55,479 nucleotides of DNA from Actinomycetota bacterium (GTDB lineage Bacteria; Actinomycetota; Coriobacteriia; Anaerosomatales; UBA912): positions 1-55,479 of the forward strand of contig JAMDCK010000040.1 of the NCBI GenBank assembly GCA_023488435.1, given 5' to 3'. Numbering within the stretch: the first letter of the stretch is position 1; every line of letters begins with the position of its first letter. Made by a program: the position numbers and the translations under genes. Positions 50,682 to 53,721 of the stretch are shown here, in pieces. The notes under the pieces were generated by a model. That model had not been told where the DNA came from. It worked only from the letters and a program-made list of their open reading frames with translations, and did no database searches.

Positions 50682-50777
50682 GGCTCCTCTTTCAGATGCA
50701 CACTGTGCTGCGAATTATTGCCACGCGATTGTGACATTGTTTGCAGCGGATTGCGAATTCTGAAAGGAAAAAGACAG

Positions 50778-50808
50778 TTGTTCTACTCGAAATTATATGA
50801 TGTATAAT
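50778..50808 (+). promoter_or_regulatory. Promoter of the yedE operon
   Basis: A perfect TATAAT (50803-50808) lies 39 bases before the yedE ATG in an AT-rich stretch. TTGTTC (50778-50783) is a possible -35 at a long 19-base spacing. The 166-base gap shared with the divergent exchanger holds no gene. Confidence 0.55.
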
Positions 50809-50847
50809 GACCACAAATAGCATAGCGAATCAGATCTGGAGGCGGGT

Positions 50848-52119
50848 ATGAGACGGAAGGCAGGGATTGGGGTAACTGCTTGGTTTGTGGGCGGAGCGGG
50901 CATATTCATCGGCGTTGTCGCATCGTGGTTGGTCAGTCAGGGTAATCCGGGGAACATGGGTGTATGTGTTGCATGCTTTCTTCGTGATATCACCGGATTC
51001 TTCGCCGGTGTAGCCACTGGGCAAGCTGGAACCGCCTACATTCGCCCTGAGATCATTGGCATCATCTTAGGTGCAGTTGCGGCAGCGGCATTGACACGGG
51101 AATTCCGTCCGCGCGGAGGAAGCGGAACTCTACTTCGGTTCGTTTTGGGCTTCATCTTCATGGTTTCCGCACTTATCTTTCTGGGATGCACTGTTCGTGC
51201 ATGGTTGCGTCTCGCCGGTGGTGACCTGAACGCCATTTGGGGAATCCTTGGGATCGTTGCTGGGGTTGTTGTTGGAATCATGATCCTCAAGCGGGGGTAC
51301 TCGTTGGGTAGATCCAAGAAAGTCTCGGGGGTTCTCGGTTGGGCACTTCCCGCACTTGCGATAATCCTTCTGGTCTTTGCCGGCCTAGCCGCATTCGATT
51401 CACGACCAACCTTTACCACCCAGACCACTCAGGGCGCATTCGCAACCGGAGACTCTCCGCCTGCGGTCTTCGTCAAGGAAGACGGTGTGATCGCGAATGT
51501 TCTCAGGCCTAAGGGCGCAATCGTCACAGCCGAAGGTTCCGTTGTCGCTGCCACCGGTGAGGTTCTCGCCAGCGCTGAGTCGGTTAGCAACGCAAGGCCG
51601 CAGCCGGGTGGGAGACGTGCTCCGCTCGCCATCGCACTTGTAGCAGGCCTTCTGATAGGCGTTGTGGCCCAGAGAACACGTTTTTGCTCAATTGGCGGGA
51701 TACGCGATGCGATCCTTGTCAGACGCTACGATCAGCTTTTCGGTGTTGCCGGTCTACTAATCGGTGCTGCAGTCGCCAACGTTGCCCTCGGGCAGTTCCG
51801 ACTCGGTTTTGAGAATCAGCCGGTTGCCCACATGGATATCCTCGGGAATTTTGTGGCGATGACGGTTGCTTCGGTCGCAGCCATGATGCTCGGTGGTTGC
51901 CCTTTCAGGCAGATCATAGTTGGCGCTGAAGGTGATTTCGACGGCTTTACTGCAGTGGTCGGCATGTTGGCTGGTGCAGGTTTCGCCCACTGGGCCCAGT
52001 TGACCTCGAGTGCGGCGGGACTTGCCCCGCTTGCGTGGCCCGCCATCGGGGTGATGGTCGTCATATTGGCCGCAATTGCGCTTCTGGCCAGGCGTAGCGG
52101 CGCTATCGCGAGAGGATGA
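50848..52119 (+). CDS. yedE: YedE/YeeE-type transporter (putative selenium or thiosulfate uptake)
   Basis: The 423-residue membrane protein has two sulfur-transport halves, each with several helices, joined by an extracytoplasmic or loop segment at about 185-265. Cysteine motifs typical of the YeeE/YedE family are present: GVCVACFLRD near the start, QRTRFCSIGGIRDAI after the linker and LGGCPFRQ in the second half. YedE is proposed to bring in selenium species and YeeE (TsuA) imports thiosulfate. Both work with a TusA-like carrier, and such a gene follows directly. A ribosome site (ggaggcggg) precedes the ATG. Four genes from here overlap or nearly touch, so they form one operon. Confidence 0.85.
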   Translation: MRRKAGIGVTAWFVGGAGIFIGVVASWLVSQGNPGNMGVCVACFLRDITGFFAGVATGQAGTAYIRPEIIGIILGAVAAAALTREFRPRGGSGTLLRFVLGFIFMVSALIFLGCTVRAWLRLAGGDLNAIWGILGIVAGVVVGIMILKRGYSLGRSKKVSGVLGWALPALAIILLVFAGLAAFDSRPTFTTQTTQGAFATGDSPPAVFVKEDGVIANVLRPKGAIVTAEGSVVAATGEVLASAESVSNARPQPGGRRAPLAIALVAGLLIGVVAQRTRFCSIGGIRDAILVRRYDQLFGVAGLLIGAAVANVALGQFRLGFENQPVAHMDILGNFVAMTVASVAAMMLGGCPFRQIIVGAEGDFDGFTAVVGMLAGAGFAHWAQLTSSAAGLAPLAWPAIGVMVVILAAIALLARRSGAIARG

Positions 52120-52124
52120 TTGCG

Positions 52125-52334
52125 ATGATAGAGGTTGATGTAAGGGGATTATCGTGCCCGATGCCGTTGGTGGAAACCAAGAAAGCGCTAGATTCCGGAC
52201 CCGATAATCTCACCGTGCTGGCAGACTCAGGTACAGCTAAAGCCAACGTTGTTGCCATGCTGAGAGACAGTGGCTACGACGTGACAGTCGATGAGTCGGC
52301 TGAGGGCTATAGCATAAAAGCAACGAGGGCATGA
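52125..52334 (+). CDS. TusA/SirA-like sulfur or selenium carrier
   Basis: The 69-residue protein has the CPxP motif in VRGLSCPMPLVETKKAL, whose Cys carries persulfide (or perselenide) in TusA-type proteins. Start at ATG 52125, because agagg lies 9 bases upstream. An ATG at 52116 overlaps the yedE stop but has no ribosome site spacing. Paired with yedE it matches both YedE-YedF-like (selenium) and YeeE-YeeD (thiosulfate) pairs. The DsrE-like second domain of true YedF is missing. Confidence 0.88.
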   Translation: MIEVDVRGLSCPMPLVETKKALDSGPDNLTVLADSGTAKANVVAMLRDSGYDVTVDESAEGYSIKATRA

Positions 52335-52876
52335 GATCCGCTTCGACAGGTGCAGCGCCTTCAAGCGAGGCTAGTCAAGCACTCGGGCTCCTGCTTTTCG
52401 ACGAGATCGCTGAAGCCATGGCTGCCGAATCGGTTCTTATCGATCACGGGCTGAAAGTGGCCATGGTTGCACCACCCTTCGATCTCAGGGTGGGATGCGA
52501 CCTTGCACTCGAGTTGCCCGCTGAGGAGATCTCTCAGGGGATAACGCATCTCATTGCGGGCGAGGTGAGGGTGCGAGCATGGACCGTGAGCGCAGATGGT
52601 GGTGAGAGGCTCGTAAACGTAGCAACCACAGTCGACTACGGTTCTTGGCTCATGGTTAGAGTCGGCAATATGAAGCTCACCGTCAAGAAGGATGATGGTT
52701 TGATCGTCAACATCAGCGGTGGTGGTTGCCCGGATATTCCATTCCTGAACATCGAACTGGTCGGACTGAGGCTAGATCAGGCGCCTCGGCCACGAGAGCT
52801 CGGGGCCACAATCTGTGGCCTGATGCTGGATTCGGCATTCGTTGAGGCGTGCCATCTACTCGGGGCCAAGCGATGA
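52331..52876 (+). CDS. Se/S-carrier-like (DUF3343) protein with an unrecognised C-terminal domain
   Basis: Residues about 17-75 of this 181-residue protein (LGLLLFDEIAEAMAAESVLI, then LKVAMVAPPFDLRVGCDLAL) match the DUF3343 / putative Se/S-carrier-like family. That family is a small domain found beside selenium-metabolism genes. The remaining 105 residues are not part of that domain and were not recognised. They contain a striking SGGGCPDIPFLN and GATICGLMLDSAF, with cysteines that could take part in sulfur or selenium transfer (inference). Start ATG overlaps the tusA-like stop (ATGA), and its own stop overlaps the next gene, so expression is coupled. Confidence 0.7.
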   Translation: MRSASTGAAPSSEASQALGLLLFDEIAEAMAAESVLIDHGLKVAMVAPPFDLRVGCDLALELPAEEISQGITHLIAGEVRVRAWTVSADGGERLVNVATTVDYGSWLMVRVGNMKLTVKKDDGLIVNISGGGCPDIPFLNIELVGLRLDQAPRPRELGATICGLMLDSAFVEACHLLGAKR

Positions 52877-53721
52877 TGAGGACCCTTGTTGTTGCGACCT
52901 ATCCTGCCATCTCAGGGAGCCCTATCGTTGGCTCCGCCTCCTTCGAAAGTGGTGGAGTTCGTATAGCGGACCGGGAGTACCCCTGTATGCAAGGGGCATT
53001 TGCCCTCATCGCAACCGCTGCAATTGTGGCCAAGGCCAACCAGGCTCCGCCTCCCCATGTTCTCCTGTGCCCGGATATCGGCCGCGGAGACGGCACAATC
53101 CAGGCATTCGGTATGCTCGCTGAAGTCATCTCCCGGATAGAACCCGATATCGTGGTCTTCCACTACATGAAGCCGCTGGTCTCGCTGATGTTCGATGCCG
53201 TTTCACAGATCGACCAGATCCGCCCCCAGGCGACCTTGGTGGCCGATGCTGGCGGGATGTATGCGGCCAAGGCGGCGGGAGTAGCCCAGCGCTTCGAGTT
53301 GATGACCCCCGATGTCGGGGAGATAGGGTTTCTCGCTGACCCTGACACACAGCATCCTGCTTACTCATCGAAGTTCATCTTCGGCGGTCAAGATTTCAAT
53401 CCGAAGCAGCTGGCTGGGCGTGCATGGGAGTCCGGAGGTTCAGCCCGAACCCTCATCATCAAAGGTGCGGTAGATCATATCTGCCGAGAAGGCCGTGTGG
53501 TCGCGCAAGTCAGCGAACCCTCAGTGCCGTCGCTAGAGGCTATCGGCGGAACCGGTGATACGCTGACCGGAATCGTTGCTGCCCTCATGGCCGCCGGGTT
53601 GCCCACTGTCGACGCGGCGACCATGGGGTGCGAGATTAATCGCCGGGCCGGGGAGGATATCGCAGCTACTCCGGCCACGAGTGTTTCTCAGCTCATAGGG
53701 GCGATTCGCGCTTCGATGTGA
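52873..53721 (+). CDS. Ribokinase-fold protein related to NAD(P)HX dehydratase (NnrD-like)
   Basis: The 282-residue protein shows the CARKD/NnrD layout: a PDIGRGDG region, the central MTPDVGEIGFL (where NnrD has TPHPGE), LIIKGAVDHIC and the anion-hole motif GGTGDTLTGIVAALMAAGL. NnrD repairs hydrated NAD(P)H using ADP or ATP. The missing epimerase partner and the operon make another substrate possible. The ATG at 52873 overlaps the previous stop (ATGA). A GTG at 52849 is in frame but less likely. It is the last gene of the yedE operon and convergent with the next gene, 21 bases away. Confidence 0.7.
   Translation: MMRTLVVATYPAISGSPIVGSASFESGGVRIADREYPCMQGAFALIATAAIVAKANQAPPPHVLLCPDIGRGDGTIQAFGMLAEVISRIEPDIVVFHYMKPLVSLMFDAVSQIDQIRPQATLVADAGGMYAAKAAGVAQRFELMTPDVGEIGFLADPDTQHPAYSSKFIFGGQDFNPKQLAGRAWESGGSARTLIIKGAVDHICREGRVVAQVSEPSVPSLEAIGGTGDTLTGIVAALMAAGLPTVDAATMGCEINRRAGEDIAATPATSVSQLIGAIRASM

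Follow-up and report, generated by a model that had tools for sequence, protein, structure and literature searches.

Organization of the operon

The window analysed here is positions 1 to 55,479 of contig JAMDCK010000040.1 (assembly GCA_023488435.1) from an Actinomycetota bacterium of the Coriobacteriia (Anaerosomatales, UBA912), and it carries, at positions 50848-53721 of the + strand, a cassette of four genes that we regard as a probable selenium acquisition-and-delivery system. All four open reading frames lie where the original prediction had placed them. The first, yedE (50848..52119), codes for a putative selenium transporter of 423 amino acids (aa), and the second (52116..52334, with an alternative start at 52125) for a TusA-like, or YedF-N-like, carrier of 72 aa with a CPMP motif. 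The third (52331..52876) codes for a protein of 181 aa, here called DUF3343x, in which a DUF3343 domain (PF11823) is followed by a C-terminal domain that has no relative of known structure; its SGGGCPDIP motif, codons 129-137 (52715..52741), includes C133. The fourth gene ends at 53721 and codes for an NnrD-like protein of the ribokinase fold (281-282 aa; PF01256, 9e-12). Its start is most likely the ATG at 52873 or 52876 rather than the GTG at 52849, because the homologous proteins begin at that methionine. With this start corrected, ATGA overlaps occur at all three junctions (52116, 52331 and 52873), and not at two as had been counted.

The presumed promoter region is a leader of 108 nucleotides (nt; 50740..50847, + strand), with a GGAGG preceding the yedE start and a G+C (GC) content of 39.8% against 58.7% for the window; only 0.13% of segments of this kind are lower. 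The AT-richness of the proposed single promoter was thus borne out, while that there is one promoter is something we infer, since neither a sigma-70-like site (promoter scan of the + strand) nor an Rfam element was found in the leader.

Conservation across phyla

Among 300 Coriobacteriia genomes drawn for comparison, 25, including the one studied here, contain a full-length DUF3343x, and a wider scan, in which each species was represented by a single genome, gave 147 relatives, 79 loci being taken into the locus counts below. All 22 Coriobacteriia loci whose contigs are unbroken, representing about 20 genera, have the order YedE-TusA-DUF3343x-NnrD-like; the exceptions are L006, for which the search gave no TusA, and the short loci L024 and L025, which show the DUF3343x/NnrD-like pair alone. 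The scan recovered the cassette from Coriobacteriia, Dehalococcoidia, Syntrophomonadaceae, Peptococcaceae, Dethiobacter, Syntrophaceae, other Deltaproteobacteria and one Nostoc, so that the 79 loci span Actinomycetota, Chloroflexota, Bacillota and Desulfobacterota as well as this single cyanobacterium. The usual order outside the Coriobacteriia is YedE-DUF3343x-NnrD-like-TusA. The DUF3343x and NnrD-like genes adjoin in every one of the 79 loci; 71 of these also have YedE, and 70 have TusA or YedF, at a distance of up to 3 kb, and contig ends truncate several of the remainder. Free variation of the gene neighbours, which would have spoken against a functional unit, is therefore not what relatives display, and the four-gene arrangement is not due to chance.

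The Nostoc locus (L054:8915-11439) has YedE fused in frame to DUF3343x, with the NnrD-like gene adjoining, and a local rise in GC. Such a fusion suggests that hand-over from YedE to DUF3343x may be direct. Contamination is an unlikely source of this cassette, because the GC of the contig fits and because the same contig holds a gene that we take to be that of photosystem D1.

Downstream of the operon in the window, a gene for a DUF6671 protein (PF20376; 53743-54612, - strand) converges on it. This gene and the PglD-like gene that follows it keep their position in a contig of a congener (L033).

The four protein families

The window YedE exceeds the equivalog cut-off of the selenium-transporter model TIGR04112 (355 bits against 200). 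It falls far short of the TsuA thiosulfate-transporter model NF052577 (17 bits, cut-off 400), and a second thiosulfate model, NF041049, gave no match. The protein of 72 aa is a single TusA domain (PF01206, 6e-17), nearer to YedF (TIGR03527, 2e-14) than to TsuB/YeeD (0.01); it stays under the TIGR03527 cut-off (54 bits, cut-off 110) because it lacks the C-terminal domain of YedF. Full-length YedF is present in the Dehalococcoidia clusters, and that of L053 is over the same cut-off. Going by family membership, YedE would be the transporter and the TusA-like protein the carrier.

PF11823 covers only residues 20-80 of DUF3343x (40.4 bits, gathering score 25), and no Pfam or NCBIfam model matches the remaining 100 or so residues, which contain SGGGCPDIP. 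The extra domain is conserved in 69 aligned relatives, and the protein is thus not of the one-domain type of 80-100 aa. Three cysteines, C56 within the DUF3343 domain, C133 and C162, are invariant in these 69 sequences. The predicted structure has a predicted local distance difference test (pLDDT) score of 90; sequence and fold searches of the PDB with DUF3343x returned nothing at E<=0.001. Weak fold matches of the extra domain to ACT, PII and YebC were set aside, as these resemble the ferredoxin-like N-terminal domain instead.

The fourth protein had been described as a ribokinase-fold relative of NAD(P)HX dehydratase, and its predicted structure (pLDDT 93) agrees: the closest structure in the PDB is TM0922, with a template modelling (TM) score of 0.62 and E 5e-8. 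PF01256 matches only its C-terminal half, and against the NnrD model TIGR00196 it reaches about 40 bits, far from the cut-off of 129.85. All 66 NnrD-like sequences keep GGTGD, which binds phosphate. Where the one canonical NnrD used for comparison has TPHPGE and DADAL, they have TPDxxE, with an invariant Asp, and DAG or DAA, and the family has additional invariant motifs, GDxGxGxG, HY and NR. The bacterium studied here has a separate NnrD domain of 189 bits, over the cut-off of about 130, so a plain housekeeping identity for the cassette protein was rejected; in 16 of 17 cassette genomes, this one included, a further NnrD likewise exceeds the cut-off, and the kinase-like protein of the cassette is thus no lone NnrD. 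It would be reasonable to expect ATP- or ADP-dependent chemistry of this protein, on a substrate differing from that of NnrD.

Association with selenium genes

The selenophosphate synthetase gene selD scored above its threshold in 24 of 25 cassette-bearing Coriobacteriia genomes against 181 of 275 others (Fisher p 6e-4), and in 11 of 11 cassette-bearing Dehalococcoidia genomes, one frameshifted copy counted, against 123 of 186 others (p 0.013); both p-values are inflated by shared ancestry, related genomes not being independent. Cassette genomes of mixed phyla gave 49 of 50, and in total selD is present in 79 of 81 distinct cassette genomes (distinct by handle and contig). Physical linkage is less affected by shared ancestry than such genome counts, and selD lies inside 20 of the 79 loci, often as the next gene. 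The statement that no selD is nearby is accordingly correct for the window, where no match was found (cysteine desulfurase and molybdenum hydroxylase were not separately searched for), and does not hold for the cassette in general.

Of 51 cassette genomes, 47 have selA, the gene for selenocysteine (Sec) synthase. The gene yqeB (TIGR03309), which marks selenium-dependent molybdenum hydroxylases, occurs in 7 of the 51 and in none of the 25 from Coriobacteriia, and the proposed connection with these hydroxylases is not supported; selenocysteine is the likely consumer of the cassette's selenium. A divergent LysR gene is found in 15 loci, and the one examined, from L074, scores above the threshold of NF040786, the selenium-LysR model. 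The uptake-and-delivery route first suggested, "for selenium or sulfur", thus gains a conserved cassette, and TIGR04112, selD, selA and the LysR model favour selenium over sulfur.

Nearly all selD genes of cassette genomes have one in-frame UGA, so that SelD is itself a selenoprotein in those genomes; many other Coriobacteriia selD genes are without it.

UGA-coded paralogues in Dehalococcoidia

In Dehalococcoidia there is a second cluster, in which a DUF3343x paralogue has an NnrD-like partner of its own and is accompanied by YeeE-like proteins of half size. In nine of these paralogues (L053:12438-12977, L059:12426-12980, L077:3605-4240, L096:8490-9029, and those of L145, L146, L147, L148 and L150) an in-frame UGA takes the place of the Cys codon in SGGGCPDIP, and homology runs on beyond it to the end of the protein. 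Orthologues in L086, L087, L089, L106, L115 and L118 have UGU or UGC at the same codon. The genomes G304 and G310, to which L053 and L059 belong, both have selD and selA. The nine genes probably encode new selenoproteins, to judge from the in-frame UGA and the hairpin with fixed codons that follows it. The window DUF3343x itself encodes Cys at this position, and as UGA replaces that very codon in the paralogues, C133 is likely to be its reactive residue.

A putative hairpin follows the UGA, with 18 nt after that codon and then GGUCU in eight of the nine genes and AGUUU in one, on a stem of four or five pairs. All four hairpin codons, +6 to +9, are among the 7 most fixed of 49 conserved degenerate columns, a ranking with a chance of C(7,4)/C(49,4), or about 2e-4, and elsewhere in the same genes Leu, Gly and Val codons vary freely. 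Less telling than this fixation is the pairing, in which 91% of cells are paired against 9-53% when the hairpin is slid. The variation is too small for covariation to be informative: there is one double change only, and shuffles reach the observed value. A search of four UGA loci for the Rfam selenocysteine insertion sequence (SECIS) gave no match, and the hairpin therefore rests on codon conservation together with pairing. Its spacing and loop presumably resemble those of the Escherichia coli fdhF SECIS.

In L145, L146 and L147 the pair of UGA-coded DUF3343x and NnrD-like protein forms a third version, whose neighbours are a 2-hydroxyglutaryl-CoA dehydratase D-like protein (PF06050), a NapH-like membrane ferredoxin and a protein of about 400 aa without a Pfam match. 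In L086, L087, L089, L090 and L106 the second cassette adjoins oppositely oriented genes, one for a GcvH-like protein and one for a dihydrolipoyl-dehydrogenase-like flavoprotein.

Discussion

The conserved operon, its selenium association, the invariant cysteines and the exchange of Cys and UGA at C133 are computational observations, and they make it probable, in our judgement, that the cassette acquires selenium and delivers it for selenocysteine synthesis. In the scheme that we propose, YedE would bring a reduced selenium species into the cell, and the TusA-like protein would accept the selenium on the Cys of its CPxP motif. DUF3343x could then receive it on C56, C133 and C162 and hand it to SelD for selenophosphate synthesis, the order YedE, TusA, DUF3343x, SelD being one that we infer. 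The NnrD-like protein might spend ATP or ADP on a step at DUF3343x or its cargo, for instance by phosphorylating a small hydroxylated acceptor, although we consider such an ATP- or ADP-driven step rather doubtful. A bolder version, offered tentatively and with similarly low expectation, is that DUF3343x and its NnrD-like partner might together be a new enzyme that acts before SelD and transfers selenium in an ATP-dependent way. Its kinase-like subunit would activate the acceptor or the carrier, and selenium would be carried or transferred by the Cys or Sec of SGGG(C/U)PDIP and so be kept apart from sulfur before selenophosphate forms.

Several observations weigh against a role in selenium delivery. 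Most selD-bearing genomes lack the cassette, which is thus accessory. The assembly studied here, 96% complete, has none of selD, selA and tRNA-Sec (selC) over cut-off. A congener (G142) has all three, and since they cluster within about 7 kb in another relative (G003), one missing locus or contig could explain their absence in an assembly of this completeness; real loss in this organism is also conceivable. The Nostoc cassette genome has neither selD nor selA. Finally, in Methanococcus maripaludis, a deletion that removed yedE and its operon partner did not clearly impair the transport of any selenium species (PMC11097638); the YedE of that archaeon is a different one, without the cassette.

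The same absences of selD and selA, in Nostoc and in the assembly studied here, favour the best of the alternatives, a sulfur counterpart in which thiosulfate or a polysulfide would be taken up and sulfane sulfur passed on to thiolation, Fe-S or molybdenum-cofactor targets, the link with selenium then reflecting no more than a shared anaerobic ecology. YeeE/TsuA and TusA are families common to sulfur systems, and DUF3343 also occurs in organisms that lack SelD, according to Lin et al. 2015 (PMC5322559). We nevertheless find a sulfur system improbable, given selD in all but two of the cassette genomes and within about a quarter of the loci, the very low score of YedE against the TsuA-type model and the selenium-LysR neighbour. 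More improbable still is that the cassette is a selenium buffer or detoxification unit, in which DUF3343x would sequester reactive selenide and the kinase-like protein would control its release. Three invariant cysteines and an accessory distribution agree with such a role, as would UGA-coded paralogues made only when selenium is plentiful, but the genes are co-transcribed with an importer rather than an exporter, and selD is directly downstream in many loci. That the fourth protein simply repairs NAD(P)HX, as an ordinary NnrD does, and is in the operon by chance is very hard to accept despite its GGTGD motif, its ribokinase fold and TM0922 as the closest solved structure, in view of its altered TPHPGE and DADAL motifs, the separate NnrD of nearly all cassette genomes surveyed and its constant position beside DUF3343x.

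If the cassette does serve selenium delivery, it bears on how cells separate selenium from sulfur en route to SelD, and no dedicated selenium transporter has been established in any organism (PMC11097638). As a well-delimited set of four genes, which selD often accompanies, it lends itself to transfer into a laboratory host, and the UGA codons of its relatives single out one residue, C133, for mutation. Those paralogues are also shortened by gene calls that read UGA as a stop.

Comparison with known systems

Among the closest known systems is the YedE/YedF/LysR_Se/DUF3343 set of Lin et al. 2015 (PMC5322559), of which we consulted sections, and with which the cassette shares a selenium-type YedE, a TusA-fold carrier, a DUF3343 protein with a conserved Cys, and selD and LysR_Se neighbours. 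DUF3343 is given there as typically 80-100 aa long, with no selenium-specific subfamily found. In the cassette, by contrast, an extended DUF3343 protein is always accompanied by an NnrD-like one, both being tied to selD, which makes DUF3343x a candidate for a selenium-specific DUF3343 subfamily; these sections hold no mention of either protein that we could find, in a literature check that was confined to open-access sources and not exhaustive. Two proteins are thereby added to the earlier selenium gene set, one of them with a domain that has no solved relative.

Thiosulfate uptake by YeeE-YeeD or TsuA-TsuB likewise pairs a PF04143 permease with an adjoining TusA-like protein, but the window YedE fits TIGR04112 and not TsuA, and its TusA-like neighbour is nearer YedF than TsuB. 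The NnrD-like protein shares the ribokinase fold and the KG and GGTGD motifs with NnrD (PF01256/TIGR00196; TM0922), and is set apart by TPDxxE, DAG and the new GDxGxGxG and HY motifs, by a score far under the family cut-off and by the canonical copy elsewhere in the genome. With ThiM, the hydroxyethylthiazole kinase, it has in common a C-terminal ribokinase-like core, and only this part matches (24 bits, cut-off 180).

The UGA-coded paralogues resemble known bacterial selenoprotein families in having UGA where a Cys is otherwise conserved, with a short stem-loop after it. They differ in belonging to no such family among the matching entries of a 2026 review of prokaryotic selenoproteins (PMC13188914), in which the words carrier, SirA, TusA and PF11823 are absent and DUF3343 is not among the DUF entries shown; NCBIfam 20.0 has no model for the UGA-coded protein either, and the nine Dehalococcoidia paralogues would on this comparison stand as a family of their own.

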